This document shows positions 12,751 to 50,530 of a stretch of DNA of 64,000 nt, in pieces. The stretch lies in contig CANNCL010000002.1 in the NCBI GenBank assembly GCA_947503155.1, positions 1-64,000 on the forward strand, given 5' to 3'. Positions within the stretch are counted from its first letter, which is position 1. The number at the start of each line of letters is the position of its first letter. The stretch is from an uncultured Erythrobacter sp. Its GTDB lineage: Bacteria; Pseudomonadota; Alphaproteobacteria; Sphingomonadales; Sphingomonadaceae. A program made the translations under genes and the position numbers. The notes under the pieces are model-generated. The model was not told the DNA's origin. It did not search any database and worked only from the letters and a program-made list of their open reading frames with translations.

Positions 12751-12782
12751 GCCTAAGGCCAGCGCCGCAACCAACACAGGAT

Positions 12783-12834: not shown

Positions 12835-12880
12835 TGTGCCAGAAGGGTGGGGAAATGGTTTTGGTTTGGAGAGAAACCCG

Positions 12881-18104: not shown

Positions 18105-18509
18105 AATCGCGGTCAGCTTTAACCGATAACCCTAAATAACAAGATAGTGGCGGCTTCGTAAGGCACCATTACACAATGCGCAAATTGCAACGCGTAGAGG
18201 TCATTGAAAGTTGGGGGCCGATGAAAGTTGGCGACCGACAATAGACCAAAGCGGAGTGTGATCACGAATATGGGGAAATTAAGCATCTGTAACACTCACA
18301 AGGGCTCTCGGTTTAACTGTTGTAATCCCATCGCATTCCTACCTTTCGGTAAACGCGTAAGGTGCCGTAGTTTCGAATTTTTTGTGGTTAACACTTGACT
18401 TGAATGAGCGATTGCAACGATTGCACACAAGTGTTTTGGCCCGTATTTTTCGCGCTTCGACGTTGAAAATTATGGGCCTGTCGCTTTTTTGGAGCGGCTG
18501 GGGGGAATA
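18105..18509 (+). promoter_or_regulatory. Intergenic region upstream of the two-partner secretion operon
   Basis: This 405-bp gap lies between divergent genes and is AT-richer than its surroundings. Close to the TpsB gene it holds two tandem 9-bp repeats, CGATTGCAA at 18409-18417 and CGATTGCAC at 18418-18426, framed by a 7-bp inverted repeat (ACACTTG at 18391-18397, CAAGTGT at 18428-18434). A TTGACT at 18395-18400 could be a -35, but no good -10 follows at usual spacing. The repeats are a candidate operator. No gene was seen in the gap. Confidence 0.35.
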
Positions 18510-20249: not shown

Positions 20250-20266
20250 GACTGAGGAACCCGTTA

Positions 20267-34730: not shown

Positions 34731-36125
34731 ATGACAATATCAAAGCCGAATTGGGGAATTACCGCCTCGTTGCGCAGGAGAAGTGCTGGATTGTTCCGCA
34801 TTTTCGCCGTGCTGGGACTTATTGCGGTTTATCCTGCGGCAATCGCGTCTGGAAATGGCACTTTCGAAGGTGTTGCGAGTTGCGCGGGTTCGACCTGCCA
34901 CGGCCGTGCCGAGGGCAATGGCGCTGTTGTTCGTCAAGATGAGATCGCGACATGGCAGGAGCCCTCCTCCGCGAGCGGCGCGCATAGCCGTGCATACGCT
35001 GTTCTGGCTGGGCGGCGCGGTCAACAGATTGCCAGCAGCCTCGGCCTTGGCCCTGCGACGCAGGCCACCGAATGCCTAGGTTGTCATGCGACCTTTGCAC
35101 CTAGTTCGCAGCGCGGCGACCGGTTTCAGCTATCTGATGGTGTTGGCTGCGAGAGCTGCCACGGCGCTGCTGGTGGATGGCTTGCCAATCACTATGCGCG
35201 TCCGGCGACCCATGCGTCGAATGTTTCGGATGGAATGACTCCGCTCGAAAATCCTCAGGCGCGCGCCAATGTCTGCCTCGATTGTCACTATGGCTCTGAA
35301 AGCACAGGGCAATTTGTTACGCATTCGATGATGGCCGCTGGTCACCCACGCGTATCATTTGAACTCGACTTATTTAGCGCGCTTCAGCAGCATCACGATG
35401 TTGATGATGACTACACGTCGCGCAAGCGCAAACCTAATGCGGTGCGGTTTTGGGCTGTCGGTCAAGCCGAAGCGGTCCGCCGCGCAACCAGCCTGTTTGC
35501 TCAGCCAAAATTCGGAATGGAGGGCGCTTTTCCGCAGCTCTATTTCTACGATTGCCACAGCTGCCACCGCGAAATTCAAGATGCGGATCAGCGACGACTG
35601 ACTTTTGAGGTCAATCCGGGGCGTCCAATTCCGTTTGGCAATCCGCCGTTCAACGATGAGAATATCATCATGCTTTCGGCGGTGTCTGGGGCGCTGGTTC
35701 CGGGCCAGGCTGAGAACTTCCGAAACGCGAGCCGCACATTCCACCGTGCGATGGGTGAAGGCAGCCCGGCAGCTGCTCGAGAGGCTGCCAATGTGCTATC
35801 TCAGCGCGCAAGGGCGCTTTCTAACGCTCTCAGTCAGCGGGCCTATATTGACGCTGACGCATTTCGCGTGATCGAAATTATTGGCGGCAACGCCACGCGC
35901 TCACACTTCACTGACTATTCCGGCTCGGTACAAGCGGTGATGGCGATTGACACGTTGCTCAATGGTTTGGTCAGTAATGGCCGTGTAACTGCTGGTGCGG
36001 CGGCCGGTATTCGTGCCAATATCAACCGCGCTTATGCAGCGGTGGAAGAACCCAATGCTTTCAAGCCGGTCGATTTCCGAACGGCGCTCAATTCGGCGAC
36101 TACCGCCATTCGTAGGTTGCAATAA
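34731..36125 (+). CDS. Pentahaem c-type cytochrome, c554-like
   Basis: A 464-residue periplasmic electron-transfer protein. A signal sequence (GLFRIFAVLGLIAVYPAAIA, about residues 22-41) is followed by five haem-binding motifs: an unusual CX4CH (CAGSTCH, residues 51-57), then CLGCH, CESCH, CLDCH and CHSCH. The order W...H...CLGCH...GVGCESCHG...H is that of the cytochrome c554/NrfB-related superfamily. The C-terminal 170 residues are helical and haem-free. The start is ATG 34731 with a G-rich site just before it. Its TAA overlaps the ATG of the next gene (TAATG), the first of three tight couplings in this operon. Partner and redox substrate are unknown. Confidence 0.88.
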   Translation: MTISKPNWGITASLRRRSAGLFRIFAVLGLIAVYPAAIASGNGTFEGVASCAGSTCHGRAEGNGAVVRQDEIATWQEPSSASGAHSRAYAVLAGRRGQQIASSLGLGPATQATECLGCHATFAPSSQRGDRFQLSDGVGCESCHGAAGGWLANHYARPATHASNVSDGMTPLENPQARANVCLDCHYGSESTGQFVTHSMMAAGHPRVSFELDLFSALQQHHDVDDDYTSRKRKPNAVRFWAVGQAEAVRRATSLFAQPKFGMEGAFPQLYFYDCHSCHREIQDADQRRLTFEVNPGRPIPFGNPPFNDENIIMLSAVSGALVPGQAENFRNASRTFHRAMGEGSPAAAREAANVLSQRARALSNALSQRAYIDADAFRVIEIIGGNATRSHFTDYSGSVQAVMAIDTLLNGLVSNGRVTAGAAAGIRANINRAYAAVEEPNAFKPVDFRTALNSATTAIRRLQ

Positions 36126-38074
36126 TGATGGCTGGGGGGTGGAAAAACCTGATCGCCGCACCGATGCTGGTGCTTGCCGCATGTGGCGGCGGAGATTCTG
36201 CGCCCGCTGGTGGGGGAACGGGCGGCACGCCGCCGACGCCGCCGCCGCCGACACCTCCTGCAACTGGGCAAGTGTTCTCCTTCCCTGCCGCTGAGAGCCT
36301 TTCTGCCGCAGATGTGCAGACCATCATCGCTCGGGCAGCCGCACAGGCAAACGCGCAGGGTGAGGGCGCGGTTATTTCGGTCGTTGATCGGCCTGGCAAT
36401 GTTCTCGCCGTTTTTCGTATGCCGAATGCGCCTGTCAATGTGACAATTCCCGGCGCGCCTAACGGGCAGAATATCGATATTCAGGGACTCGAAGTTCCCG
36501 CAGAAGCCGCTGCGATCGCGAAGGCGGTCACCGGCGCATATTTGTCGAGCGGCGGCAACGCATTCTCTACGCGTGTTGCATCGCAAATTGTGCAAGAGCA
36601 TTTTCCGCCATCGCCGACAACGCTCGGGTTGGAAAGCGGGCCGCTGTTTGGTGTGCAATTTAGCCAGCTGCCTTGCTCCGACCTATCCTCGCGATTTGGT
36701 GACGGGATGATCGGTCCGCAGCGTTCGCCGCTTGGCCTTTCGGCTGACGCAGGCGGTTTCCCGCTTTATAAAAACGGCGTGATGGTTGGCGGTATCGGGG
36801 TTGCGGCAGACGGTGTCTACGGGTTCGACCCCAATGTACTCGACGTTGATATCGATACTGACGAATCCATCGCGCTCGCCGGGACGATCGGGTTTGAGGC
36901 TCCTGTTACGATTCGCGCGGATCGGATTTCGGCGGACGGCACCTCGCTGCGCTTCACCGATGCCACCTATAATGCGCTCAGCGATGTATCCGGTGCTAGC
37001 TTCGCCGGCACAGCGGGCGGTTTGGTTGCAGTGCGCGGATACACCGATGCTGTCGTGCGGGCCGGTGCCGCTTACGGAACCGAAGCGTCTGGAATGCGCC
37101 CATCGACAGCTGCTGAATTTGCGAATCCTGACGCTTATGTTCTTTCTGACGGTGCGGGTAATAATCGTTTCCCCATACGTGCCGGAACCGATGGCGCGGA
37201 TATCGCATCGCCGATTACTCAGGCTGAAGCCGCGGCAATTCTTGAAGAAGCCTTCGCTGTGATGAGCCGCGCACGTGCGCAAATCCGGCGCCCTCTCGAT
37301 AGCCGGGCGCAAGTGTCGATCAGTTTGGTTGATACGCGCGGGCGCATTTTGGGCATTGTTCGCTCGCCTGATGCTCCAATCTTTGGAACCGATGTGAGCC
37401 TACAAAAGGCACGTACGGCGAATTTCTTCTCAGGCGCATTTGCGGCGGGTGAATTGCTTGCTGCTGAGCGTGAAGTGCCAGAATATGTTGGGCGGGTCCG
37501 GGCATTTCTTAATGATCCGAATGCTTTGACTGGCGCATTCGCTTTCGCTGATCGATCAGGCGGCAATCTGTCCCGCCCTTATTTTCCCGATGGCGAAGTT
37601 GGCACCCCGCCGGGGCCATTGTCTCGTCCGATTGAACAGTTCAATCCGTTTTCCACCGGTTTGCAATCTGCGCTAATCCTGCAGAATCTCGAAGAGCATT
37701 TGGGTTTTGTATTGGGCGGGGCGAATGACACCAATCGAGGGTGCTCAAAGCTACCGGCGATTGCTGGTCTGGGAACTCGGCTCGATAACGGTATCCAGAT
37801 TTTTCCCGGCTCCGTACCCGTTTATCGCGGCAATGATCTGGTCGGCGGTATCGGGGTATCAGGCGACGGCATTGATCAGGATGACATGATCAGCTTCCTT
37901 GGTTTGCATAATGCTGGGGTGCGAACGGGCACGCTTGGCAATGCACCCAATGATATTCGCGCAGATAGGATTGTAGTGACCGTCAATGGTCGGCAAACCC
38001 GTCTTCGCTACGTCAATTGCCCATTCGCGCCGTTCCTCGACGATCCAACTCAGAATGTGTGTGAGGGGCTGTAA
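36125..38074 (+). CDS. Lipoprotein with two GlcG/HbpS-like (haem-degrading superfamily) domains
   Basis: A 649-residue predicted lipoprotein: signal LIAAPMLVLAAC with lipobox LAAC, then a glycine/proline linker (PTPPPPTPP). The GlcG/HbpS (DUF336) fold is visible twice, first at about residues 55-130 (ADVQTIIARAAAQANAQGEG; ISVVDRPGNVLAVFRMPNAP) and again at about 375-450 (AAAILEEAFAVMSRARAQIR; ISLVDTRGRILGIVRSPDAP). Each is followed by a region ending in VYRGNDLVGGIGVSGDG or the matching LYKNGVMVGGIGVAADG. Family members bind haem or small ligands. It sits between a cytochrome and an outer-membrane protein with stop/start overlap upstream and a 2-bp gap downstream, so it is likely part of the same redox complex. 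Enzymatic activity is not evident. Confidence 0.82.
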   Translation: MMAGGWKNLIAAPMLVLAACGGGDSAPAGGGTGGTPPTPPPPTPPATGQVFSFPAAESLSAADVQTIIARAAAQANAQGEGAVISVVDRPGNVLAVFRMPNAPVNVTIPGAPNGQNIDIQGLEVPAEAAAIAKAVTGAYLSSGGNAFSTRVASQIVQEHFPPSPTTLGLESGPLFGVQFSQLPCSDLSSRFGDGMIGPQRSPLGLSADAGGFPLYKNGVMVGGIGVAADGVYGFDPNVLDVDIDTDESIALAGTIGFEAPVTIRADRISADGTSLRFTDATYNALSDVSGASFAGTAGGLVAVRGYTDAVVRAGAAYGTEASGMRPSTAAEFANPDAYVLSDGAGNNRFPIRAGTDGADIASPITQAEAAAILEEAFAVMSRARAQIRRPLDSRAQVSISLVDTRGRILGIVRSPDAPIFGTDVSLQKARTANFFSGAFAAGELLAAEREVPEYVGRVRAFLNDPNALTGAFAFADRSGGNLSRPYFPDGEVGTPPGPLSRPIEQFNPFSTGLQSALILQNLEEHLGFVLGGANDTNRGCSKLPAIAGLGTRLDNGIQIFPGSVPVYRGNDLVGGIGVSGDGIDQDDMISFLGLHNAGVRTGTLGNAPNDIRADRIVVTVNGRQTRLRYVNCPFAPFLDDPTQNVCEGL

Positions 38075-38076
38075 TT

Positions 38077-39975
38077 ATGGCGTTCTCTCTCATCCCACTT
38101 GTGCTCCTGTCGCAGCCTTCCGCATTGGAAGAGACTGCTCCAGCTCCCGCGCCGCCATCTGCGCAAAGCTCTGATGGTTCAGAGGCACAGGATGAGGAGC
38201 AACCTGAGGGTTTGAATCAGACGGCCAATCCTGATCCAGAGCCATTGGACCGGGATATTATTGAAGGGCGTGAGCGTCCGGGATTCAGTTCGGACCTACC
38301 CGAAGAAATTCAGCAGGAAAATCAGGGTGCTATCCGCGCACCTCCTCCGCAAGCATTCTCACCTGATCAGGTACCAATCCCCGATCGCTGGCGCTTGATT
38401 GAGGGGCTTGGAATTGTCGAAGAAGACCTGCTCGATCCTTATAATCAGAACACCTATAAAGGTGATCGCCCAATCAACCCGGACAAGGTTCCGTGGTTGC
38501 CTATCAATGGCGATGATTGGTTCTTTGTTGCGAATCTGATCAGCGACACGGTCTATGAGCCGCGCACTTTCCCGATTCCGGTGGGTATTCAGACAACCGA
38601 AGACCCCGACCGGCTTGATGTGTTTGGTGATGATTTCTCGACAGTGTTATCGCAGACATTCATCGCGGGCTTTGCGCTGCTGAAAGGCAGCACGGCGTAT
38701 AAGCCGCCAAGCGTCGAATATCGCCTGACGCTCGCCTACAATGTTAATTATGTGGATGTTCCAGAGCGCCGCGTTCTGTTTGTGGAACCGTCGCGCGGCA
38801 GCGACCGGCTCGATCATTTCCTTGGCGTTCAAGAGGCCTTCGTTGATTATCACTTCTCGCAATATGATAATGACCGGTACGATTTCATCTCAATACGGGC
38901 AGGGATTCAGCCGTTTCAGGCCGATTTCCGCGGGTTCTTGTTCAACGATCAGCAACTCGGCGTGCGCCTATTCGGAAATCGCGACAATAACCGTTTGCAG
39001 TTCAATCTTGCTGCGTTTTGGCGGCTTGAGAAAGACACCAATAGCGGATTGAACTCTGTCGTTCAGAGCCCGCGCGATGATTTTGTGTTCATCGCCAACC
39101 TATACCGTCAAGATTTCCTAATTCCGGCTCTGACCAGTCAAATCACGCTTGCATATAACCGCAATCGTGAGGGCAACGATATCAAGATCGACGATAACGG
39201 GTTTCCTGTACGCCCCGCATTGCTCGGTGATATTCGCGGGCGCGATTACGATGTCTTTTACATCGGATACAATGCGGATGGCCGAATTGGCCGGATCAAT
39301 ATCACTGCGAGCGCTTATTGGGCGCTAGGTGAAGACCGCAATAATTTCTTCACTGGCATCCCCGCTGATATCAATGCGCAGTTTGCGGCAGCTGAGCTGA
39401 GTTATGACCGCGACTGGGTGCGTTTGCGCCTGTCTGGTTTGTATCAAAGCGGTGATAGCGATCCGTATGATAACGAGGAAAACGGCTTTGACGCGATCTT
39501 CGAAAACCCGGTTTTTGCTGGCGCAGATACGTCTTATTGGATCCGTCAGACCATTCCATTTGCGGGCGGGGGCCGTGCAGTTTCGGTCAATGGCCGCAAT
39601 GGCATTTTGAACAATTTGCGGTCTTCTAAAGAGCAAGGCCAATCGAACTTCAACAATCCCGGTCTTTGGTTGCTCGGCGTTGGTGCGGATTTTGACCTGA
39701 CACCGGAATTCCGCCTCAGCGCGAACGCCAATCACCTTTGGTTTGAAGACACTACGACGCTGGAAAACCTTCGGATTGAAGGGACCATCCCAAGCGAGAT
39801 TGGTTATGATCTTTCCGCGTCGGCTATTTGGCGGCCTAAGGCCAATCAGAACATCGTATTCCGCCTGTCGGGTGCCACGCTTCTGGGTGGTGATGGGTTC
39901 CAAGATCTTTTCGACAATCGCGGTAACGGTACTGCGTTTTATTCTATCCTCGCAAACGTAACGTTGGCTTACTGA
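38077..39975 (+). CDS. Predicted outer-membrane beta-barrel protein of the cytochrome operon
   Basis: A 632-residue protein without an obvious named family. It starts with a short hydrophobic leader (MAFSLIPLVLLSQPSA), then an acidic, proline/glutamine-rich stretch to about residue 110. The rest shows alternating amphipathic strands rich in aromatic residues (YRLTLAYNVNYVDVPERRVL; IRAGIQPFQADFRGFLFNDQ; RLRLSGLYQSGDSDPYDNEE) and ends in ILANVTLAY, a strand with an aromatic C-terminal residue as in outer-membrane barrels. Its TGA overlaps the ATG of the decahaem cytochrome (TGATG). It may be a porin-like sheath for electron transfer or a substrate pore; this is inferred from context. Confidence 0.7.
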   Translation: MAFSLIPLVLLSQPSALEETAPAPAPPSAQSSDGSEAQDEEQPEGLNQTANPDPEPLDRDIIEGRERPGFSSDLPEEIQQENQGAIRAPPPQAFSPDQVPIPDRWRLIEGLGIVEEDLLDPYNQNTYKGDRPINPDKVPWLPINGDDWFFVANLISDTVYEPRTFPIPVGIQTTEDPDRLDVFGDDFSTVLSQTFIAGFALLKGSTAYKPPSVEYRLTLAYNVNYVDVPERRVLFVEPSRGSDRLDHFLGVQEAFVDYHFSQYDNDRYDFISIRAGIQPFQADFRGFLFNDQQLGVRLFGNRDNNRLQFNLAAFWRLEKDTNSGLNSVVQSPRDDFVFIANLYRQDFLIPALTSQITLAYNRNREGNDIKIDDNGFPVRPALLGDIRGRDYDVFYIGYNADGRIGRINITASAYWALGEDRNNFFTGIPADINAQFAAAELSYDRDWVRLRLSGLYQSGDSDPYDNEENGFDAIFENPVFAGADTSYWIRQTIPFAGGGRAVSVNGRNGILNNLRSSKEQGQSNFNNPGLWLLGVGADFDLTPEFRLSANANHLWFEDTTTLENLRIEGTIPSEIGYDLSASAIWRPKANQNIVFRLSGATLLGGDGFQDLFDNRGNGTAFYSILANVTLAY

Positions 39976-42900
39976 TGCTCGCAAAACGCAGATTTCTTCA
40001 CTCCTTTTCGCCGCGTTATATCCTTCTGGGGATTGCAGTGCTGTTGCTGGGGGTGTCTGTGTTCCAATCGGAAACACGGGCAGCCGACGGTGAAACTGCG
40101 GTTTATCGCGATTACAGTGATGTCATCGCTCTGCCCGCGCCGGCGCGCCAGTCTCAAGCCGAAATGGATGCAAAGTCAGAGGGGTGCTACACTTGCCACC
40201 TTCAAACCGATGCGCCCACAATGCACACAACACCGGCTGTGCGCCTCGGCTGCACCGATTGTCATGGCGGCAATGCAAGTGTCCGCGGCAACTCAGATTT
40301 GCCGCAGGATCATCCTGACTATGTTGCAGCGCGCGATACTGCGCATGTCCTGCCGAAATATCCGGACAGCTGGCATTTCCCATCATCTGCAAATCCGCAA
40401 CGTTCGTATGCGCTTCTCAACAAAGAATCGCCTGAGTTCGTAAAGTTTGTGAACCCGTCGGATTACCGGGTCGCTCGCGAAGCGTGCGGTTCGTGCCACA
40501 TCCAATCGATCGAAGCAGCTGAGCGTTCGATTATGGCGACCGGTGCAATGTTGTGGGGCGGGGCGACCTACAATAACGGCATTTTGCCATTCAAGAATTA
40601 TATGCTCGGCGAGGCTTATACGCGTAGCGGTGATCCAGCGGTGATCAGCGGACAGGCCAGCGTCCTGTCCACACCGGGCGACGGTGAGAATGGCGAATTG
40701 TCCGATGCACAGCGCGCTCGCGGCGTTCTGTCAGAACTGTATCCTTTGCCGACCTGGCATGTGATCCCGCCCGCCGATGTCTTCCGTGTGTTTGAACGGG
40801 GCGGCCGCACGATCCTGTCGCAATTCCCAGAGATTGGTATTCCGAATCCAACGGGGCTTATCCAGCGCCTAGAAGAGCCGGGACGGCCTGACCTGAAACA
40901 ATCGAACCGCGGTCCCGGAACTGGGCTGCGCGTTGCGATCCCGGCGCTTAATATTCACAAGACACGCCTCAACGATCCTTTCACTTGGTTTATGGGAACC
41001 AATGATCAGCCGGGCGATTACCGCCATTCCGGCTGTGCGAGTTGCCACGTCGTTTATGCCAATGACCGTGAACCGCGCCATTCGCTGATCTATGCGCAAT
41101 ATGGCCGCGATGGACAGACGATTACGGTCGATCCCACGATCAACACGCAGATGCAGGAAGAGCATGGCTATGGCGGCGATGACCACGCTGACGCCGGTCA
41201 TGCTGATGACGGGCATTCCGGGGGCGGCCATGGCGGATTGCGCCAGCCAGGTGAAAGCTATGCAGACGACAATGGTGATGGCCACGGCGAAGCGCCTGTG
41301 CGCGAATCCGGTCATCCGCTGCAGCATGTCTTCACACGCTCAATCCCGACTTCGCAGTGCATGTCTTGCCACATGCACCAACCGAATATCTTTCTGAACT
41401 CCTACCTCGGTTACACGATGTGGGATTATGAGAGTGACGCGCCATCCATGTGGCCGGGGCCAGAAAATACCACGCCGCGCCCAGAGGGTATGAGCGATGA
41501 AGAATACGAGGAGTTCTATCAAACGCAGCGTTTCCCGACGTCGGAAGAAGTGCGCGCGATCCTTGACCGAAATCCGGAAGCTGCGGCGGCAAAGGGCCTG
41601 TGGGGAGATCTCGATTTCCTCCGCAACGTCTATGACCTGAACCCCACGCTTGAGCACACGCAGTTCGCCGATTACCACGGCCACGGTTGGAATTTCCGCG
41701 CTATCTTTAAACGCGACCGTGACGGCAATATGCTTGATGCGGATGGCGACATTCTACGACCGTCTGAAGAAGGTGATACGCCCGAAGAGGCCGCCTATCA
41801 TGATGACCGCTGGCGCCAGCGCTGGCGGCGAGACGGCGAAGGTCAGTTCGTTGAACCCGGGACCAATCCGGGCGAATCCGTCCATATGATGAGCATCCAC
41901 GCCGAAGTCGGAATGCAATGTGTTGATTGCCACTTTGAGCAAGACACGCACGGCAATGGCTTGATCTATGGCGAAGTAGCCAATGCGATTGAGATCGGCT
42001 GTAAAGATTGTCACGGCACCGCCGACGAATATCCGACACTCCGCACCAGCGGCCCCGCGGCCCCTCCGGAAGGGCATAACCTTGCTCTCCTGCGCAACCC
42101 AGATGGGCAACGCCGCTTTGAATGGATGGAGAACGAAGAAGGTCGCCGTGTTTTGATCCAGCGTTCGCTGGTTGATCCTGAACTTCAGTGGGAAATGAGC
42201 CTCGTTCGGGATTCCGTTGATCCCTCTACTCCGGTGTTTAACGCCCGAGCAGCGCGCTCCAAATTGATGAGCCGTTACGGCGCCGAAACTGGCCGATTTG
42301 AATTTGGTAGCGGCATCGAAGAAGACGACCGCGCCCACCAAAATGAAGAGATGGCGTGTTTCACTTGCCACCTTTCTTGGACGACATCATGCGGCGGGTG
42401 TCACTTGCCGATTGAGGCAAACTGGAAGACCAAATCGCACCGCTATGAAGGTGGCTCGACACGCAATTTCGCAAGTTACAATCCGCAAGTTGCGCGCGAT
42501 CAAATGTTCCAACTTGGCGTGCACCAAACAACAAAGGGTAATCAAACCGCTCCGGTTCGCTCAAGCTCTGCGCTGGTTCTGTCATCAACCAATATCAACC
42601 GCGAACGCATCTATGTGCAGCAGCCGCCGATTTCTGCGATTGGCTTCTCAAGCCAGGCCTTTGCGCCGCACTTCCCGCACACGGTGCGTCTAAATGAAAC
42701 CAAGACGTGCACCGATTGCCACCTGTCCGAAGAAGAGGACAACAATGCGATCATGTCGCAATTGCTGCTCCTCGGCACGAACTACGTAAACTTCGTTGGG
42801 ATGCATGCTTGGACCGGCCTTGAAGGCGGTCTGACGGCGGTTCGCGTCACCGAATATGACGAACCACAAGCCGTCATCGGTTCCTATTTGCATCGGTATT

Positions 42901-44282
42901 CGACACCGGATTATTGGCGAATGCATGTTGAGGACAATGGCCGTGAGCTGAAAAATTGGGTTCGCGGGGAGGCGTTTGATGACGATCTTTCTGGCGAGAC
43001 CCATCCATTCGAGGAATTCGTCAATGTTCACGAGGGCACGCCGGGCCGGGTAGGGTGTTTGCAGCTGCGCGGTGAATATCTGTTCGTCGCAGAAGGTAGA
43101 GGCGGTTTCCGTGCCTACGATGTGGCGTCTATCGCGAATAAAGGTGTGTCAGAGCGGATTATCACCGCACCATTCTCACCGCTTGGCCATGACACGCATG
43201 TAAGCAGCGAGAACGCCACATGTATGGCACTCGCAACCAACCAGCCAATTGCGCCAGAACGCAACACACCGCAGATGCGCGAAGTGAATCAGGAGCAGCC
43301 GTTCCTGCCGATCTACAACTACGCAGTTGTAACCGACGCGGTCGAAGGACTGATCTTGGTCGACGTCAACACGCTGGCCGATGGCGAATTCCGCGACAAC
43401 TTCTTTGAGCGCTTGGAATACACCGACGGTTCGGACGCATGGAACCCCGACGGTGTACTCACTGGTGCAACCCATGTGCACCTTGCTGGCGAAATTGCGT
43501 ATATCACTTCTGATCGGGGCTTGGTCGTGGTCGACTTGTCGAACCCGCAGGCTCCGCAACTTTCGGCAGTGCGCGAGTTGACCGATGCCCGCGCCAGCGC
43601 GATCCAGTTCCGCTACCTTTGGGTCAGCGACGCGGACGGTGTAAAATTGTTCGATGTAACCGATCTGCGCAATCCGATCGCAGTTCCAGAAGCAACATTC
43701 CCGCTGGCTGATGCCCGCCGGATTTATGTTGCGCGCACCTATGCTTATGTCGCTGCGAAGGGTGACGGCTTGGTTATCTTGGACGTGAAAAATCCTCGCG
43801 CGCCAGTGCTGCAACAAAAAGTGACCTTGGATGGCACGCTGAATGACGCAGAAGACGTGATCGTCGCGTCAACCAATGCGTCATTGTTCGCCTATGTCGC
43901 GGATGGGCGGAACGGCATGAAAGTGCTCCAAATGACCAGCCCGGATAGTCAGCGCAACTTCTATGGCTTTAGCCCGGCTCCAGTGCCGGAGTTGATTGCC
44001 TTTGCAGAAACTCCGTCGCCTGCGATTGCACTGTCCAAAGGCATTGACCGTGACCGCGCGGTTGATGAAACTGGCGGTCAGATGGCTGTGTTTGGCCGAC
44101 TTGGTTCGCGGCCCTTTACCCGTGAGGAAATGGAGCGACTGTTTATGACGCGCTCGGGCGTTCCTTGGCGTGTGACCGACGAAGTCGACATGGATCGCTG
44201 GGTTGGACGCGGGGTGGGCCCTCTGCGCCGTAACGCAGACATCGATGCTACGCCGGAAAACGAAGCACTCGGCGGCGACTAA
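39975..44282 (+). CDS. Decahaem c-type cytochrome fused to an LVIVD-repeat propeller
   Basis: A 1435-residue exported cytochrome. A signal anchor/peptide (YILLGIAVLLLGVSVF) leads to ten CXXCH motifs: CYTCH, CTDCH, CGSCH, CASCH, CMSCH, CVDCH, CKDCH, CFTCH, CGGCH and CTDCH, spread over about the first 930 residues. Between the fourth and fifth lies a His/Gly/Asp-rich segment (HADAGHADDGHSGGGHGG) that could bind metal. The last 450 residues hold LVIVD-type repeats (GLVVVDLSNPQAPQLSAV; GLVILDVKNPRAPVLQQK), a beta-propeller of surface proteins. It ends the plus-strand operon. It probably stores or conducts electrons at the cell surface or periplasm; no known enzyme matches its whole length. Confidence 0.88.
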   Translation: MLAKRRFLHSFSPRYILLGIAVLLLGVSVFQSETRAADGETAVYRDYSDVIALPAPARQSQAEMDAKSEGCYTCHLQTDAPTMHTTPAVRLGCTDCHGGNASVRGNSDLPQDHPDYVAARDTAHVLPKYPDSWHFPSSANPQRSYALLNKESPEFVKFVNPSDYRVAREACGSCHIQSIEAAERSIMATGAMLWGGATYNNGILPFKNYMLGEAYTRSGDPAVISGQASVLSTPGDGENGELSDAQRARGVLSELYPLPTWHVIPPADVFRVFERGGRTILSQFPEIGIPNPTGLIQRLEEPGRPDLKQSNRGPGTGLRVAIPALNIHKTRLNDPFTWFMGTNDQPGDYRHSGCASCHVVYANDREPRHSLIYAQYGRDGQTITVDPTINTQMQEEHGYGGDDHADAGHADDGHSGGGHGGLRQPGESYADDNGDGHGEAPVRESGHPLQHVFTRSIPTSQCMSCHMHQPNIFLNSYLGYTMWDYESDAPSMWPGPENTTPRPEGMSDEEYEEFYQTQRFPTSEEVRAILDRNPEAAAAKGLWGDLDFLRNVYDLNPTLEHTQFADYHGHGWNFRAIFKRDRDGNMLDADGDILRPSEEGDTPEEAAYHDDRWRQRWRRDGEGQFVEPGTNPGESVHMMSIHAEVGMQCVDCHFEQDTHGNGLIYGEVANAIEIGCKDCHGTADEYPTLRTSGPAAPPEGHNLALLRNPDGQRRFEWMENEEGRRVLIQRSLVDPELQWEMSLVRDSVDPSTPVFNARAARSKLMSRYGAETGRFEFGSGIEEDDRAHQNEEMACFTCHLSWTTSCGGCHLPIEANWKTKSHRYEGGSTRNFASYNPQVARDQMFQLGVHQTTKGNQTAPVRSSSALVLSSTNINRERIYVQQPPISAIGFSSQAFAPHFPHTVRLNETKTCTDCHLSEEEDNNAIMSQLLLLGTNYVNFVGMHAWTGLEGGLTAVRVTEYDEPQAVIGSYLHRYSTPDYWRMHVEDNGRELKNWVRGEAFDDDLSGETHPFEEFVNVHEGTPGRVGCLQLRGEYLFVAEGRGGFRAYDVASIANKGVSERIITAPFSPLGHDTHVSSENATCMALATNQPIAPERNTPQMREVNQEQPFLPIYNYAVVTDAVEGLILVDVNTLADGEFRDNFFERLEYTDGSDAWNPDGVLTGATHVHLAGEIAYITSDRGLVVVDLSNPQAPQLSAVRELTDARASAIQFRYLWVSDADGVKLFDVTDLRNPIAVPEATFPLADARRIYVARTYAYVAAKGDGLVILDVKNPRAPVLQQKVTLDGTLNDAEDVIVASTNASLFAYVADGRNGMKVLQMTSPDSQRNFYGFSPAPVPELIAFAETPSPAIALSKGIDRDRAVDETGGQMAVFGRLGSRPFTREEMERLFMTRSGVPWRVTDEVDMDRWVGRGVGPLRRNADIDATPENEALGGD

Positions 44283-44450
44283 GAGCCGAGAGTTTTGCGG
44301 TTAGCGAGAGGTGCTGCGCCGTTTGGCTGGGGCGGCGCCGAAGGCGTCGCTCGTGCCAAGCCGCATCAGCAGCAAGACACCGCTAACAACATCAGCTGAG
44401 AAACGTATGGAATTTGGAAGGTCGCTAACGCCGAGCTTCACCAATGCAGC
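44283..44450. other. Gap between the two convergent cytochrome operons
   Basis: The 168-bp gap contains an 8-bp GC-rich hairpin with a GAA loop (44332-44339 with 44343-44350, one G-U pair) and no T-tract. On the minus strand a 46-codon frame (44301-44441, GTG start) is open with no ribosome site; it is noted but not called as a gene. The hairpin may end one or both operons. Confidence 0.35.
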
Positions 44451-45320
44451 TTAAGTGCGCTCTTCGAAGAGGCCCTTCATCATCGGCCGCAAGTGATCTT
44501 CGAAACGTGCGAGCGTTTGCCAATGGCCGACGGGCTGAAAATGCGAAACAAGTGTTCCGTCTCTCCACAGGTGCAAACTATAGAATGGTGGTTCAGCGGC
44601 AACGATGGGCCTTTTATCGGCAATGTCTATGTCCAGCGGTCGCAGATCCAGCGACACGGCCGGAGCCACTGCGGGGGTTACACTGACGGGAATGCCTTCA
44701 ACCGTTGAATGCAACAGCCTGTGCAAGTGACCGGCTTGAATTGAAATGATCTGTTTGTGGCCCGCAACCGTTGCATGAAAACGGGTGAACCACGCTTCTT
44801 CAGGCTTTGGATCCATCCAGTCTATGCCGGCAATGACTGGCGGATGGTGCACGAACAAGACGGTCGGCGTGTCGGGATGAGCATCCAACTCTTTTGCGAG
44901 CCATTTGGCGCGAACCTCGCAAAATGCGCCGCCATGCCTACCGGGTTCGAACGAATCTAAGCACAGGATGCGCAAACCGTCCAATTCGATCGCGAATTGA
45001 GCAAAGCCGTCGGCCGTTGGGCATTCAGGAAAGGCTTTGAGCATTTCTTCCCGATTGTCGTGATTGCCGGGAATGACGTGAACAGGAAAGGGGCAATCCT
45101 CAACCAGAGTTCGTATGCGGGCATAGCAATCTGCCTGTCCGCCGTCGGTAAGGTCGCCAGATAGGATGAGCAAGTCAGGCACAACTGACTGACTTAGTAG
45201 ATGCCCCAAAACATTGCGAAACCGCACAAAGTTAAACTCATTCTCACCCGCCTCTGGTTCAAAACCGATATGGGTGTCGGTGATTTGTGCAATGAGCACA
45301 CCGCGTTTTTCGCTCGTCAT
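44451..45320 (-). CDS. Calcineurin-like metallophosphoesterase, CpdA (3',5'-cyclic-nucleotide phosphodiesterase)-like
   Basis: A 289-residue dinuclear-metal phosphodiesterase. The five metal-binding blocks are visible: QITDTHIG, LSGDLTDGG, PGNHDN, FVHHPP and QAGHLH, in the spacing of the CpdA/GpdQ class III phosphodiesterases. It has no signal peptide, so it acts in the cytoplasm. Its ATG lies 2 bp after the stop of the FHA-cytochrome gene, making it the last gene of the minus-strand redox operon. A cAMP-lowering role would fit the cyclic-nucleotide-binding domains encoded at the head of that operon, but other phosphodiester substrates are possible. Confidence 0.88.
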   Translation of the reverse strand: MTSEKRGVLIAQITDTHIGFEPEAGENEFNFVRFRNVLGHLLSQSVVPDLLILSGDLTDGGQADCYARIRTLVEDCPFPVHVIPGNHDNREEMLKAFPECPTADGFAQFAIELDGLRILCLDSFEPGRHGGAFCEVRAKWLAKELDAHPDTPTVLFVHHPPVIAGIDWMDPKPEEAWFTRFHATVAGHKQIISIQAGHLHRLLHSTVEGIPVSVTPAVAPAVSLDLRPLDIDIADKRPIVAAEPPFYSLHLWRDGTLVSHFQPVGHWQTLARFEDHLRPMMKGLFEERT

Positions 45321-45322
45321 GC

Positions 45323-47110
45323 TCAGCGTCTTAAACTGCTCAGGAATGCCGCGACAGTATCGTTATCACCATTTTCGGGGAGATTACCGTGATCCTCTGC
45401 GCGCCATGGCATCGTTGGTGTGTGATAGCCGTGACACATTGCGCAGCTTGAGGGGGTAATCTCTTCGGTCTTCACTGCAGTCTCACCCAGGTGGCAATCG
45501 CGGCAACTTTCAAGGTTGGGGATCAGCAAGTCGGTTGCTTCACCCGACGTGTCTGCTGTGTGACAATCTGTGCATTCTGCAACATCTTCCCCGTGAGCCG
45601 CGTGATCGAAATGTCCACCCAAAAGGAATCGGTCCGGCAGGTTCACAGGGGTCAGGTCGCGCCGTCCATTGGTGCTGGTCGGGATATGACATTCACCGCA
45701 CACGCCTGTTGGCTCGAGCGCACGGTTGATGGCGATATAGGCGCTCATCGGCCGTCCGAAATTCGAATAATACGCGCCGCCGCGGGCAAATTGACCGGGC
45801 CGTCCTCGGCCAGTGACGACAGCGCGCCGTGGACCGCGATCCATCGTTGCGAGGTCGGCCATCAAATCATCGACATCGCCGTGGCGAAGCGAGCGGAAGT
45901 TTGGTCCATTGCGGTCGAACACAAGGCTGTGACAACTTTCGCAAGCTGGCTCCATCTCTACCGCCGCGAAACCGATCCCATCGTCTTCTTCCTCGTGGCA
46001 ATTGCTGCATTCGAGTGGCGCACCATAACCGGAGAGGCTGAGGGCCATCCGTGCGACGCCGCCATCGGGTGCCATGTGAATGTCATGAGGGAATATCAGG
46101 CCGCTTTTTTCGGTAACATCATTATCGAGCGAAACACGAGTTGGCTCTTCGCTGAAATGCTCGGTGTAGAATTGCGGGCGGAATTGCGGATGCTTCTTGC
46201 CAAAATCAGAGGCGTTACCGAATGATGCATTGCTCAGGCGCGTATCAAGTTCGTTGTGACAATCAGAGCAGAATTGCTCGCTGGCTGCTTCGAGTTTTAC
46301 GGGGCCTTCGTGCTCTGAGTGGCAAGACACACAGCCGAGCGGACCTTCTTTGCCGAGTGTTTCTGCGATCTGCCATTGGATTGAATCGCCGGTGCTGAGC
46401 GGTGCCATCCCTTCTGCGAGACGCGGCGCTTCAGCGTGGTCGCCGAGTTCCTCATGGCAGGTCAGGCAGGTTTCATCTTGGACGGATACAAACGGCGTCG
46501 CGTGGCAGGCTTCGCAATTTTCTTCAAGCTCATGGTGAGCCATGCTCAGCTCGCCAGTGCTCCACGTCGAATCGAAGAGAACTTGGCCCTCAGGAATATT
46601 CTCAGGATCGTTCTCAACCGGTGCGCGGGTCAGGTGCGTGATCACTGGAACCGAAAGCAACAAGACTAAGATCAGCGCAGAGAAACCCCACGCCATGAGC
46701 CGCTTGCTGGGCAGTGCGCTAGCGAGGGCAAAACCTTGTACGGGATCGCTTGCGCCTGCGTTCTTTTCAGCATTCTTGATAACGATCTGAACCGGGCCGT
46801 CACTGTCCCGCGATATGACCATTTGTGCGGGGCCAACGGTAATTTCGGCTCCGCTGTTTGGGTCGATCGTCCCATCTGAGACAGCTTTACCATCAATGCC
46901 GAACTTCAGTTCGCCCAATGACCTTGCTGCGAGCATGCCGCCGCCAGCATCGCTCAAACTCAAGTGGCGCAGCTCAACCGTCAAGTCGGGTAGATGAATG
47001 TCGCTTTTCGGATCGCGGCCAATGACCAACTCGGCCTGGTCCACGGTGCGGTCGCGCACGATTTCACGGCCTGACTTGGCTCTTGCGATGGTGCGGATCA
47101 GGAATGCCAT
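45323..47110 (-). CDS. FHA domain-anchored decahaem c-type cytochrome
   Basis: A 595-residue membrane protein with an unusual architecture. Residues 1-110 form an FHA phosphothreonine-binding domain (LVIGRDPKSDIHLPDLTVEL; RHLSLSD) with no signal peptide, so it should be cytoplasmic. One helix at about 137-160 (WGFSALILVLLLSVPVI) crosses the membrane. The rest is periplasmic with ten CXXCH motifs: CEACH, CLTCH, CVSCH, CSDCH, CSNCH, CESCH, CGECH, CTDCH, CRDCH and CAMCH, of cytochrome c3/c7 style. It lies 10 bp after the cytochrome b-like gene and probably receives electrons from it, or passes them to it. The FHA part suggests control by phosphorylation. Confidence 0.9.
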   Translation of the reverse strand: MAFLIRTIARAKSGREIVRDRTVDQAELVIGRDPKSDIHLPDLTVELRHLSLSDAGGGMLAARSLGELKFGIDGKAVSDGTIDPNSGAEITVGPAQMVISRDSDGPVQIVIKNAEKNAGASDPVQGFALASALPSKRLMAWGFSALILVLLLSVPVITHLTRAPVENDPENIPEGQVLFDSTWSTGELSMAHHELEENCEACHATPFVSVQDETCLTCHEELGDHAEAPRLAEGMAPLSTGDSIQWQIAETLGKEGPLGCVSCHSEHEGPVKLEAASEQFCSDCHNELDTRLSNASFGNASDFGKKHPQFRPQFYTEHFSEEPTRVSLDNDVTEKSGLIFPHDIHMAPDGGVARMALSLSGYGAPLECSNCHEEEDDGIGFAAVEMEPACESCHSLVFDRNGPNFRSLRHGDVDDLMADLATMDRGPRRAVVTGRGRPGQFARGGAYYSNFGRPMSAYIAINRALEPTGVCGECHIPTSTNGRRDLTPVNLPDRFLLGGHFDHAAHGEDVAECTDCHTADTSGEATDLLIPNLESCRDCHLGETAVKTEEITPSSCAMCHGYHTPTMPWRAEDHGNLPENGDNDTVAAFLSSLRR

Positions 47111-47120
47111 GACGCCAGTC

Positions 47121-47984
47121 TCACCAGTAGAAGAACACGCTCACGACATGCGCGAGCAGTGCGGCGAGCAGAGCAATGGTCGCCGGAATGTGAATAAACA
47201 GCCAAACTTCGAGCAAAGCTTTGTTGCGAAGATGGCGGCGGATCTGGCCAAGTTGCGCTGCGCGCTTGGTCAGGAGTGTATGCACACTCTGCTGGGCATC
47301 ACTTCCCGTTTCTGAGATGTTCGATAGTGCGCGGGCGGTCTTACAACCTGGATAAGCCCCCGTCAGGCGGCCAAAGGCACCGCCAGAAAAAACGTCCTGG
47401 CCCAAAGCTCCAATCACAAGGTCACATTCCGCGCGGTCAAGCGGTTGTGCTGCGCTGTCCAGTTGACGATCAGTCACCGACAGTTCTTCGAGCATGTCAG
47501 CCCGTGTCATTTCCTTGCGATTCGCGGAAAGTGTCTTTGGAAGTTTCGCGTAAACAACGACGCCGTAAATCCCGGTGATGATGACAATTAGCATCAGAAA
47601 ATATGCGAGCGTGTGGACATTCCAACCGATCTGAAATCCGGTATGCAGCGTGCCCACCACAATCAGCGAAAGACCCAAGTAGATATGCGCGCTTGTCCAC
47701 GCCTTTAGGCTCCAAGTCCCCTCAGAAATCTTGCGTTTGCGGATGCCTAATAGTGAGAGCCAGACGATGAGCAGCACCCCGATCGTGCCGAGCGTATAGC
47801 CATACCACGTTCCGCCATTTGGCCGAGGTTCCTGATCGATAAGCCAATAGCCTAGCCCGCTCACAATGCTGAGCAGGAGTGCGATCCACAGCCAGCGGTA
47901 TCCCCGGTATTTGAGAAAGCTGATGTGGTCGGCATTGCGCCGTTCCTCATCCTGCTTAAACCGTTTGTTCGCGGCGCTCGCCAT
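47121..47984 (-). CDS. Membrane cytochrome b-like protein
   Basis: A 287-residue protein with about five hydrophobic helices: WLWIALLLSIVSGLGYWLI, YTLGTIGVLLIVWLSLLGI, AHIYLGLSLIVVGTLHTGF, LAYFLMLIVIITGIYGVVV and, at the C-terminus, IHIPATIALLAALLAHVVSV. Histidines sit inside or at the ends of several helices (SAHIYLG, GTLHTGF, NVHTL, FIHIP, LLAHVV), a pattern expected for one or two b-type haems. A 110-residue soluble loop lies before the last helix. The start overlaps the upstream stop (TGATG). As partner of an Fe-S flavoprotein and a decahaem cytochrome it would be the quinone or transmembrane electron-transfer subunit. No exact family is claimed. Confidence 0.75.
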   Translation of the reverse strand: MASAANKRFKQDEERRNADHISFLKYRGYRWLWIALLLSIVSGLGYWLIDQEPRPNGGTWYGYTLGTIGVLLIVWLSLLGIRKRKISEGTWSLKAWTSAHIYLGLSLIVVGTLHTGFQIGWNVHTLAYFLMLIVIITGIYGVVVYAKLPKTLSANRKEMTRADMLEELSVTDRQLDSAAQPLDRAECDLVIGALGQDVFSGGAFGRLTGAYPGCKTARALSNISETGSDAQQSVHTLLTKRAAQLGQIRRHLRNKALLEVWLFIHIPATIALLAALLAHVVSVFFYW

Positions 47985-50530
47985 CAGTCTTCCACATCCT
48001 CTGTGAGTTTGGCGAAATTGATGAATTTATCGGGCGCGACGCGGATTGCGGCGCCGGTTGGGCACGCGCGCACGCAAGAAGGGCCGCCATCAATGCCAGC
48101 GCACATATCGCATTTCACAGCCTTCTTCGCGACATTGGGCTCGCTATTTTCTTTGCGCCAGGAATAGGAAGCCTGACCAGGCCCCGGTCCGCTGCCAAAC
48201 ATCAACCACTTGAGCAAGTTTGGCTTTTCTGGCGGAACGGGTTCCATATTGATTACGCCGTAAGGGCAGTAGGTTTTGCAATTGCCGCAACCGATGCACG
48301 TTTCTGTATTGATCGAAACCTCACCATCCGAACCACGCTGAATGGCGTTAGGAGGGCAATCCGTCATGCAATGCGGATGTTCGCAATGCCGGCAAGACGT
48401 GGGAACATGGAGATACGCGAAACTCTTCCCCGCTTCGCGATCAAGCCGCGAGAGCCCGTCATGAGAATCAGCGCAGGCTTTCTCACAATTGTCGCAGCCA
48501 ATGCACAGTCTCTCATCAATGAGCAGCGCATCGGTTGCCTCACCCATACCTTGATCGAACAGGAATGCCGCTGTGCCAGAAAAGTCGCCGAGCGCATTGT
48601 CGGCTTTACTGTTCTGGTTTTCGATTTCCTCGTTCGAACGGCGCCGTTCAGCCATCACTTCCAACGCTCGGTCACGCAATTGCGGTTTCTTGTCGAGCAA
48701 TTGAAGGAAGCCTTCGCCGGGCAAGCGTATCACTTCGGATTTGATCGACGCGCTTACGGTTGAGGTGCGCTTCGACCCATCAATCACGGCCATTTCACCA
48801 AAGAAATTGCCTGCTGGGATCAGCGAGAGAAAGACGGGTTTGCCGTCCATTTGCTTCTCCACCTTCATCGAACCGATGCGGCAGATATAGAGGTCTTTGT
48901 CGTCATCGCCTTCGGTTATGACGGTTTCACCAGCGCGAATTTCCTGCGTCTCGGCGCTTGCCACCAAGGGAGCAATATCATCCGGAGTTAGGCCAGAGCC
49001 AAAGATTTGCAAAATTTGCCGCTCGATTGAAATTCGGGTGACTTCTGCTTCTGCTTCGGGCGATGATTTGATCAACTTAAGCGCGGCTTTGCGCGACAAT
49101 TCGACCACTACGACATCTTCTGCGGCGCGAATGGTCGCACCCCGGCGGCGGCCAGAAATTAGGCCAACTTCGCCAAAGATAGAACCTTGTCCAATCGGCA
49201 CAGTAATCGACGGATTGTTGGGATTAACTTCAACCGCCACGCTGCCTTGCGCAATCGCAAACAGCGAGGAACCGGGGTCGTCGCGCCGGAAAATGGGCTC
49301 TCCTGGCTCAAAGGCGCTGCAAATACTGTCGAGCATCAACTCACGCATTTGCAAGGTTGAGAGGCCTCCAAAGATGCCGACCTGTGTTTGGTAAACTTTG
49401 AGCCAGTGATCGACGCTCTCATTGCCAGGAAGGCTTGCGAAAACTTTCTCCAGCAGCGGTTCATCGGCAGGTTTCACCGCATTGCCGGTCGCCAGATATT
49501 CGACAACATCATAGCCCTGATTCATGCAGTGCTTGATCAGCGGATAGCCCGCCAGCGCGCCGATTACGAAGATACCTTCGTTTGTTGTCTCAAACTCAGC
49601 GGACAATTTGGGGAATGCACCGCGGTCCTCGCTGGTGAACTCAACCCCCATGCTTTCGATGAACTTGCGCGAAGGTTGAGACCCGATCCGCGTGATGATC
49701 ATATCGAACGGGATGATTTCCTGGCCGGTTTCTGTCTCGACCACCATTTCGCCGTCACGAACCTCCGCCGGGGAGGTGCGATAGGCAATTTTCAGATGAC
49801 CTTCTTCGTCCGCACTTGCGAGGTCGGTGGCATTCTTGATCTTGGCTTTTGCGAAATCTGTGCCGCGATTGAGGATCGTTACATTGTTGCCCAGCGCTGG
49901 ATCGGTCGCGAGGCCCATCGCGTTTTCGATACCCGCATCGCCCGTACCAACGACGATCACATTCTTGTCGACATGGTCTTCAGGGTCATCAAGCTGCGGC
50001 GTGATATTCGGATGGTCGGCACCCGGACAGCGCAACTTGTTAGGATTGCCCTGTGTCCCGATCGCGAGCACGATGGTCTCGGTTCTAATCGTCTCGCCGC
50101 TTTTCAAGGTAAGGGTAAAATTGCCTTTTTCACCTTCGACCTTCGTAACTTCGGCGTTGAGCTTAGTGTTGACCTCAAAGCCTTGAACGTCACCTTCATA
50201 GGTGGGCATACGGCTATCTTCGATGCCGCAATGCTTGTTCCAGATGCCGAGGATCCGCTCACGCGTTCCTTCCTCGAATTCCATTCCTTCTAGGCCGCCT
50301 TCTTCATACCCGCCCGCCCGCAATTGCAGGTCAGAAGGGGTAGCCATGACGTGCTTACCCTTTTGGTATTTGAAGATCGTATCTGAAAGGTGGTCAGTCT
50401 TTTCGAGCAAGACATGCGACATCCCGCGAGCTGCCGCTTGTCCAGCAGCGCTCATCCCGGCAGGGCCGGAGCCAACTATGGCGACTTTGTACAAATCCCC
50501 CAATCCATCCCCCCCTTGGATAGATTTCAC
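47984..50530 (-). CDS. Fusion of FAD oxidoreductase, two cyclic-nucleotide-binding domains and a four-cluster ferredoxin
   Basis: An 848-residue cytoplasmic fusion. Residues about 14-340 are a thioredoxin-reductase-fold FAD/NAD(P)H domain (VAIVGSGPAGMSAAGQAAAR; NVIVVGTGDAGIENAMG; FVIGALAGYPLIKH) but without a CXXC redox pair, so closer to YpdA-like proteins. Two cNMP-binding domains follow at about 390-500 and 505-620 (IGQGSIFGEVGLISGRRRGA; PAGNFFGEMAVIDGSKRTST). From about 665 a HybA/DmsB-like ferredoxin carries four Cys clusters: CIGCDNCEKAC, CRHCEHPHCMTDCP, CIGCGNCKTYCP and CDMC...CVRACP. The start is uncertain: GTG 50530, or a TTG at about residue 10 with a better G-rich ribosome site. 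First gene of the minus-strand operon. Confidence 0.88.
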   Translation of the reverse strand: MKSIQGGDGLGDLYKVAIVGSGPAGMSAAGQAAARGMSHVLLEKTDHLSDTIFKYQKGKHVMATPSDLQLRAGGYEEGGLEGMEFEEGTRERILGIWNKHCGIEDSRMPTYEGDVQGFEVNTKLNAEVTKVEGEKGNFTLTLKSGETIRTETIVLAIGTQGNPNKLRCPGADHPNITPQLDDPEDHVDKNVIVVGTGDAGIENAMGLATDPALGNNVTILNRGTDFAKAKIKNATDLASADEEGHLKIAYRTSPAEVRDGEMVVETETGQEIIPFDMIITRIGSQPSRKFIESMGVEFTSEDRGAFPKLSAEFETTNEGIFVIGALAGYPLIKHCMNQGYDVVEYLATGNAVKPADEPLLEKVFASLPGNESVDHWLKVYQTQVGIFGGLSTLQMRELMLDSICSAFEPGEPIFRRDDPGSSLFAIAQGSVAVEVNPNNPSITVPIGQGSIFGEVGLISGRRRGATIRAAEDVVVVELSRKAALKLIKSSPEAEAEVTRISIERQILQIFGSGLTPDDIAPLVASAETQEIRAGETVITEGDDDKDLYICRIGSMKVEKQMDGKPVFLSLIPAGNFFGEMAVIDGSKRTSTVSASIKSEVIRLPGEGFLQLLDKKPQLRDRALEVMAERRRSNEEIENQNSKADNALGDFSGTAAFLFDQGMGEATDALLIDERLCIGCDNCEKACADSHDGLSRLDREAGKSFAYLHVPTSCRHCEHPHCMTDCPPNAIQRGSDGEVSINTETCIGCGNCKTYCPYGVINMEPVPPEKPNLLKWLMFGSGPGPGQASYSWRKENSEPNVAKKAVKCDMCAGIDGGPSCVRACPTGAAIRVAPDKFINFAKLTEDVED

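Follow-up and report, generated by a model that had tools for sequence, protein, structure and literature searches.

An Erythrobacter multihaem cytochrome locus as a candidate two-module electron conduit through the Gram-negative envelope

Eight genes at positions 34731-50503 of a 64,000-nucleotide stretch of DNA from an uncultured Erythrobacter sp. (GenBank assembly GCA_947503155.1, contig CANNCL010000002.1, positions 1 to 64,000; the whole stretch is hereafter called the window) encode three multihaem c-type cytochromes, a flavin oxidoreductase, a putative b-type membrane protein and a predicted outer-membrane barrel, and raise the question of where such a set would take electrons from and where it would deliver them. 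The answer favoured here, at a probability of about one half, is a two-module electron conduit spanning the Gram-negative envelope from end to end, with an inner module (the products of genes H, G, F and A) and an outer one (B, C and D). We infer every electron step, the topology, the complexes, the gating and the direction of flow from the gene set, its domains and motifs, its co-occurrence and the predicted barrel and propeller. The system itself is real, co-inherited and patchy, and it is found in hundreds of species; the pathway to the cell surface envisaged in the initial annotation of this DNA is plausible.

All eight reading frames recognised in that annotation are present and, as it had described, are arranged in two convergent operons, A-B-C-D on the plus strand and H-G-F-E on the minus strand. 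The close packing of the genes was likewise borne out: start and stop overlap by 1 base at A-B, C-D and H-G, and gaps of 2-10 bases separate B from C, F from G and E from F. The scan of the locus for promoters and terminators returned values no better than chance.

The product of A (34731..36125, plus strand) is a pentahaem c-type cytochrome of 464 residues with an N-terminal transmembrane or signal segment and a c554-like domain (PF13435 in Pfam, E 5.5e-12; profile match to the cytochrome c554 structure 1bvb, E 6.6e-8). F (45323..47110, minus strand, 595 residues) combines an FHA-like, presumably cytoplasmic domain, one transmembrane (TM) helix at residues 139-157 and a decahaem domain predicted to lie in the periplasm; the FHA-like assignment comes from matches below the respective cut-offs (PF16697, 1.1e-5; FHA, 0.012), with FHA scoring above its cut-off in the relative from locus L212. 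D (39975..44282, plus strand, 1435 residues) is a decahaem c-type cytochrome ending in an LVIVD beta-propeller (PF08309, E 5.8e-17). The three proteins hold 25 haem motifs, against a chance expectation of 0.005-0.03 CxxCH for each protein when its residues are shuffled. The count of 5 + 10 + 10 given in the initial annotation thus stands, with the correction that one of the five motifs of A is of the CX4CH type (CAGSTCH) and only four are CxxCH.

The CX4CH motif is retained in 16 of 17 A orthologues of the genus (the seventeenth is cut by a contig end) and in 13/13 more distant A proteins. Four CxxCH plus one CX4CH were counted in 80 of 85 A-type frames, ten CxxCH in 98 of 100 F frames and in 122 of 123 D frames; in these counts, as in those over 124 loci given below, the sets L087-L110 and L111-L190 partly overlap, so that some places are counted twice. 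From Alpha- to Beta- and Gammaproteobacteria, the haem numbers stay nearly the same. Beyond the haem motifs, A has 7 invariant histidines for its 5 haems (14 aligned rows), F exactly 10 for 10 haems (17 rows) and D 13 for 10 haems (46 rows). Such a near-constant stoichiometry, together with enough invariant histidines for bis-histidine ligation, points to wiring rather than to catalysis; it fits bis-histidine, electron-carrying haems in A, D and F, without being a proof of them.

The electron donor of the inner module would be H (47984..50503, minus strand, 839 residues), in which an NAD(P)H/FAD oxidoreductase part (PF07992, 9.2e-31), two cyclic-nucleotide-binding domains (PF00027, 7.5e-36 over two stretches) and a [4Fe-4S] ferredoxin part (PF13247, 9.5e-11) are joined. 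The flavin/ferredoxin fusion reported earlier is therefore confirmed and extended by the two cyclic-nucleotide-binding domains; its start is most likely TTG 50503 and not GTG 50530, since a stop closely precedes the aligned start in 9 of 18 orthologues. Being in frame, this stop might point to recoding or decay of H; both were rejected, as its position ahead of the start marks it as an artefact of start-site choice. No CxxC of the thioredoxin-reductase type occurs in the flavin domain in any of 10 aligned rows, which makes a disulfide substrate unlikely. The cyclic-nucleotide signature FGE..R is present in both binding domains of the window's H; in the alignment of H, FGE...R occurs in the first domain in 10/10 rows, in the second in 7/10 and in both in 7/10, and at least one signature was found in 73 of 89 H frames.

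H lies directly upstream of G (47121..47984, minus strand, 287 residues), a putative inner-membrane protein carrying two WX3HX13H motifs (W96..H100..H114 and W261..H265..H279) and the sequence TGIYG at position 137. Of 92 G sequences, 91 have both motifs and all have [S/T]GxxG, the window with T in place of S, and histidines 100, 114, 124, 265 and 279 are invariant in 18 rows. The earlier label of a cytochrome b-like protein is upheld by these motifs and not by Pfam, where the match to the b561 family stays below the cut-off (20.7 against 30.1 bits); a PDB profile search with G gave chance matches alone (best E 0.061). Hydropathy indicates four TM segments, to which a histidine-bearing third helix would add a fifth. 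On the strength of the motifs, G is expected to hold two b haems.

In the inner module thus composed, H would draw electrons from cytoplasmic NAD(P)H onto FAD, and its ferredoxin clusters would hand them to G, whose two stacked b haems would carry them over the inner membrane in the manner of a cytochrome b or an NADPH oxidase. The decahaem part of F, anchored by its single helix, would gather the electrons in the periplasm, and A would relay them.

The outer module is represented by B, C and D. B (36125..38074, plus strand, 649 residues) is a secreted, lipoprotein-type protein matching PF03928 (E 1.4e-20) in three stretches, and probably contains two copies of an HbpS/GlcG-like domain. The domain part of the earlier description as a GlcG-type lipoprotein holds; as to the lipid anchor, the window's B shows a lipobox (LAAC) and B from L087-L090 comparable ones, whereas the first 40 residues in L091-L110 display no evident lipobox. 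In relatives, too, B adjoins C and D. In 13 loci (L130:5530-6033 and 12 others) the gene immediately preceding B, at a distance of about 5 kb from the start of D, encodes a small, secreted-looking protein of approximately 168 residues.

C (38077..39975, plus strand, 632 residues) has no haem motif, no cysteine and no match in Pfam, and NCBIfam returned only a porin model far below its cut-off. AlphaFold2, run on 32 sequences, predicted a barrel with 18 strands of at least 9 residues (predicted local distance difference test, pLDDT, 74.7; predicted template-modelling score 0.72), with low confidence over most of the first 130 residues. The best Foldseek matches of this model were AlgE entries (3rbh, E 1.3e-16, TM-score 0.67 by target, 12% identity), followed by chitoporin and OprD-type porins. 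In agreement with the initial annotation, C is very likely an outer-membrane barrel, as judged from the model. A PDB sequence-profile search gave no match for either C or D. The model of D, computed for the relative in L113 (1200 residues, 46 sequences), reached a mean pLDDT of 67.1, with propeller blocks of 91-96 at residues 941-1080. C may hold D or be crossed by it, so that the ten haems of D would bring electrons to the outer membrane and its propeller would stand at the surface, with B, a haem-binding-type lipoprotein, assisting.

The same proteins allow another interpretation, according to which D is a catalytic surface or periplasmic reductase for one compound (a metalloid, haem, a quinone or an oxidised organic molecule) that reaches it via C, while H, G and F merely supply it with electrons from NADPH. 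The nearest relatives of C by structure, AlgE and the OprD-type barrels, pass substrates, B has HbpS haem-binding domains, and the best NCBIfam match of D is ExtM of the Geobacter Ext selenite/tellurite operon. The score of the latter match, however, is 55.7 bits against a cut-off of 800, its best stretch covers 51 residues, and with 13 further invariant histidines for 10 haems no open haem is evident in D; a dedicated reductase of this kind is regarded as unlikely. Membership in the Ext operon itself was rejected, as the ExtM score is far below the equivalog cut-off; the ExtN and ExtO models gave 15.8 and 15.9 bits with D (cut-off 200).

How far the two modules travel together is seen from their occurrence. 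Within the genus, a strong match to H was found in 23 of 37 members searched (20 near full length; cut or split in G013, G017 and G034), and the same 23 carry D, which is present in 64 of 100 genus members; none of 24 genomes from other families of the order has a full-length H. The gene order A-B-C-D, E-F-G-H is the same in 18 genus loci, with the exceptions of L037, which has no E, and of L035 and L036, where contig ends cut the locus and gene A, respectively. In the class, D matched 30 of 337 genomes, 25 strongly and five weakly (at most 40 bits), and C was found in 25, identical to those with a strong D. G was detected in 45 of these 337 genomes, strongly in all 25 D genomes and in 7 more, weakly (at most 73 bits) in 13. 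The co-occurrence check put forward in the initial annotation thus favours it, both for H with D and for C with D. Among 349 genomes sampled from the phylum, D gave a strong match in 6 and a weak one in 8; the six comprise the window's own genome, one congener, three members of the same family and one of another alphaproteobacterial family, and their small number shows the system to be patchy.

When 84,980 species genomes were scanned by pattern, at least 594 candidate stretches emerged, of which at least 585 encode relatives of D; the best 80 were kept. Among these 80, 49 loci reach a length of 21 kb or more. The set B, C, D, F, G and H is complete in 46 of them; one has A and all of this set but B, only B, C and D are present in L159 and L160, and A occurs in 32 of the 49. 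The inner half may also lie elsewhere in the genome. G was present in 5 of 5 genomes searched whose D stretch is without G or cut before it (in that of L089 the two lie approximately 670 kb apart on one contig), so that D was accompanied by G in every whole genome examined (25 + 5); G also occurs without D. In the plasmid database a D match was found in 16 of 72,556 records, in 13 over most of its length (12 Sphingobium, 1 Sphingopyxis). Of two plasmids examined, both typed as conjugative by PLSDB, pMSHV carries A-D and E-H and pMC4, in the stretch examined, only A-D; G was not found in the Sphingopyxis plasmid record, where the plasmid record alone was covered. In the tree of G, the nearest named relatives of the window's genus are Sphingobium and a metagenome-assembled genome (MAG) of the Sphingomonadaceae.

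The carriers named in the pattern scan include Steroidobacter, Haliea, Limnobacter and Duganella, and most of the named hosts are heterotrophs living on organic carbon. Since flow from NADPH to an external acceptor would moreover be downhill, the outward direction is more likely than uptake. In the opposite case, Fe(II), Mn(II) or the like would be oxidised at D and the electrons led inward to quinone or, with an input of energy, to NAD(P)+. This agrees with the presence among the best 80 of at least 594 loci of two MAGs that bear the names of lithotrophs, Nitrosomonas (L183) and Sulfuriflexus (L166), and of a Haliea MAG named Biocath (L151). The porin-cytochrome c complexes PCC3 and PCC4 have also been tied to Fe(II)/Mn(II) oxidisers and modelled with inward flow, in the case of PCC4 to the quinone pool, by He et al. 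2017 (PMC5566968). However, H has a flavin NAD(P) domain that the PCC4-like H of L223 lacks and that best fits NAD(P)H oxidation, NADP+ would be reached only uphill, and the predominance of heterotrophs speaks in the same sense, so that uptake seems doubtful. A link to phototrophy was dropped, as the genome has no reaction-centre gene (PF00124).

The two halves do not form an inseparable unit of eight genes, and to that extent the initial annotation does not hold. Seven class genomes have a strong G and neither C nor D. In five of them (L211-L214, L216) the inner half stands alone, with no C or D in the genome and no B in the stretch: H, G, F and A are present in L211, L212, L213 and L216, whereas in L214, which has no H, G and F are joined by a tetrahaem protein that resembles A weakly. 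L210, with B at a contig end, and L215, on a short contig, may lack D through an assembly gap. In L212, L213 and L214 the place of the outer half is taken by a 5-haem protein and a barrel-like protein of approximately 530 residues with an aromatic C-terminal residue; the C profile found no match in these genomes or in those of L219, L220, L222 and L223, the comparison containing no reference PCC4 porin. The 5-haem and barrel-like genes of L212 (G183) lie between two pentahaem frames of the A type, at 12026-13447 and 16768-18219. Sequences of G without C or D fall at several places among D-bearing ones in the tree, which suggests that outer modules were swapped or lost more than once; local supports are mixed (0.63-0.99 at the nearest nodes, as low as 0.39 deeper), and the events cannot be counted. 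Such swapping of outer modules, with the inner module kept, would also help to tell which parts determine the external partner.

As regards control, two cyclic-nucleotide sites in H and the FHA-like domain in F make switching of the flow by a cyclic nucleotide and by phosphorylation probable. E (44451..45320, minus strand) encodes a CpdA/SpdA-type metallophosphoesterase, similar to cyclic nucleotide phosphodiesterases (PF00149, E 2.1e-15; 137 bits with the SpdA model, below its cut-off of 400). It is a lineage-restricted accessory: only 22 of 124 loci have it, and 18 of the 22 belong to the same family as the window. A GAF-GAF-PAS-class III nucleotide cyclase (15277..17580, minus strand; PF00211, E 2.3e-23) is a possible further accessory; 10 of 124 loci, five belonging to a single genus, have cyclase frames close to the cluster, in L090 directly after E, and the link of the window's cyclase to the cluster is weak. 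The FGE...R signatures, E and the nearby cyclase genes together suggest cyclic-nucleotide control, with E or such a cyclase setting the level of the nucleotide. Threonine phosphorylation may act as a second switch: a PP2C phosphatase is encoded in 11 of 124 loci (L143, L151-L154, L156, L157, L163, L180, L182, L185), approximately 4-5 kb from the start of D on the A side, and a separate FHA protein near the cluster in 8 loci, hinting at phospho-threonine control of F.

So many regulatory elements (two cyclic-nucleotide sites, FHA, a phosphodiesterase, a cyclase, PP2C neighbours) could also indicate a role in signalling or redox poise, that is, controlled dumping of excess reductant or formation of extracellular superoxide, with O2 as the acceptor at the surface. 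The order NADPH-FAD-two b haems resembles that of NADPH oxidases, and many hosts are aerobic. Nevertheless, O2 as the acceptor is without direct evidence, many of the c haems would be superfluous if superoxide were formed at the inner membrane, and no comparable bacterial system was met among the matches listed in open-licence PMC papers on extracellular superoxide and NADPH oxidase; this role appears quite improbable.

Other genes adjoin the locus. Upstream of A, at 18489-32613, lie genes for TpsB of two-partner secretion, a TpsA-like protein of 3103 residues and a CHAT-domain protein; TpsB adjoins A also in L090 and in the Sphingobium plasmid L191. Two-partner secretion was not counted as part of the system, as TpsB stands beside A in only these two of 124 loci, the flanks of which are short. 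Between the CHAT gene and A, a FAD_binding_4 oxidoreductase with an internal hydrophobic stretch is encoded (32662-34362), and such a gene lies beyond A in L027 too.

Several observations weigh against the two-module conduit. F, G and H are absent beside the outer half in L089, L090, L159, L160 and the Sphingopyxis plasmid stretch L192, and the five genomes with an inner half and no C or D imply that some other use for it must exist. In the model of D many blocks of the haem part fall under 60, and all 50 Foldseek matches listed fit the propeller alone. The MtrB barrel has 26 strands; that of C, with 18, is narrower, and a decahaem domain may not fit inside. With regard to gating, E is missing from most loci, the window's cyclase is 17 kb away from A, and just 18 of 89 H frames have two cyclic-nucleotide signatures by the pattern used. 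No expression data, spectra or phenotype were found.

Should D, C and the inner module function as proposed, many bacteria of soil and sea that are not classical metal respirers would perform extracellular electron transfer, and would do so under second-messenger control. A bolder version, which must be called speculative and rather unlikely as a whole, is an NADPH-driven exporter gated by cyclic nucleotide and phosphorylation, NADPH-oxidase-like inside, ending in the outer-membrane decahaem-propeller and not at the inner membrane, present in hundreds of ordinary proteobacteria, with a standard inner module onto which outer modules are plugged. Were it true, extracellular electron transfer, whether as a redox valve, for metal reduction or for extracellular superoxide, would be a regulated everyday function of aerobic heterotrophs and would not be confined to metal respirers. 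The carriers include cultivable organisms.

It remains to compare the two-module conduit with known systems. A barrel gene beside multihaem cytochrome (MHC) genes, the general mark of porin-cytochrome systems, is present, C lying between B and the decahaem D. In logic the arrangement is like that of MtrCAB, MtoAB and PioAB: an inner-membrane donor, a periplasmic MHC, and an outer-membrane barrel with an MHC. The inner-membrane donor in the Mtr-type system is the quinol dehydrogenase CymA, whereas the window's system would be NAD(P)H-linked and its barrel is predicted to be 18-stranded and AlgE-like. As the initial annotation stated, no Mtr, Pio or Cyc2 member is recognisable: against the DmsE/MtrA model TIGR03508 (cut-off 192.2 bits), D, F and A scored 17.8, 16.3 and 20.0 bits, nothing reached an NCBIfam Mtr/DmsE cut-off, and no MtrB was among the 50 Foldseek matches listed for C, which speaks against an MtrB/PioB-type barrel. 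Cyc2, a monohaem cytochrome fused to a barrel, was rejected because C has no cysteine.

In NADPH oxidases and ferric reductases, a cytoplasmic NAD(P)H-FAD part feeds two b haems held across the membrane by HX13H motifs. In the present case, unlike there, flavin is carried by a protein of its own, of the YpdA/thioredoxin-reductase type and with ferredoxin clusters, and the next carrier is a decahaem cytochrome. The HX13H parallel was already drawn by He et al. for the inner-membrane protein (IMP) of their complexes (PMC5566968).

According to the same authors, the MHCs of PCC3 have medians of 34 and 21 haems, with repeats (PMC5566968). PCC3 as there described shares with the window a barrel, two large MHCs and the same class of IMP motif. 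The MHCs here have 10 and 10 haems, and never more in the frames counted, so membership in PCC3 was rejected. In L217 (G360), a G-like IMP (72.9 bits) stands beside 21- and 13-haem frames in a PCC3-like arrangement, which suggests that the IMPs of PCC3 and PCC4 are distant relatives.

The closest system is PCC4, proposed by He et al. as a putative porin-cytochrome c complex and made up of an IMP with two WX3HX13H, SGXXG and five TM helices, preceded in subgroup II by a ferredoxin gene of pfam13247, together with a porin and three MHCs that have 4, 5 and 10 haems (PMC5566968). Measured by that description, G with its two WX3HX13H and [S/T]GxxG, H with pfam13247 directly upstream of G, the c554-type A with four CxxCH, a decahaem MHC and the barrel gene are all alike. 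The differences are the additional flavin NAD(P) domain of H, the haem set of 4+1 (A), 10 (F) and 10 (D) instead of 4-5-10, and the outer half, where B, C and the decahaem-propeller D replace a separate pentahaem MHC and a porin, B being extra. The 4-5-10 set was found in L219, L220, L222 and L223 (L218 and L221 have 4 and 10 only in the stretch), and in L212 and L213 with 4+1 as its first member beside H-G-F of the window's type; the H of L223 has cyclic-nucleotide-binding and ferredoxin domains and no flavin domain. Open-licence PMC papers held nothing for LVIVD with multiheme, for multiheme with GlcG, or for multiheme, electroactive and Erythrobacter together. The system, called undescribed at first, is hence so in part: its inner half (H, G, F, A), by sequence, matches that of the putative PCC4 in content and motifs, and the outer half (B, C, D) looks new, set apart from PCC4 by the published description of the latter as far as it was available.

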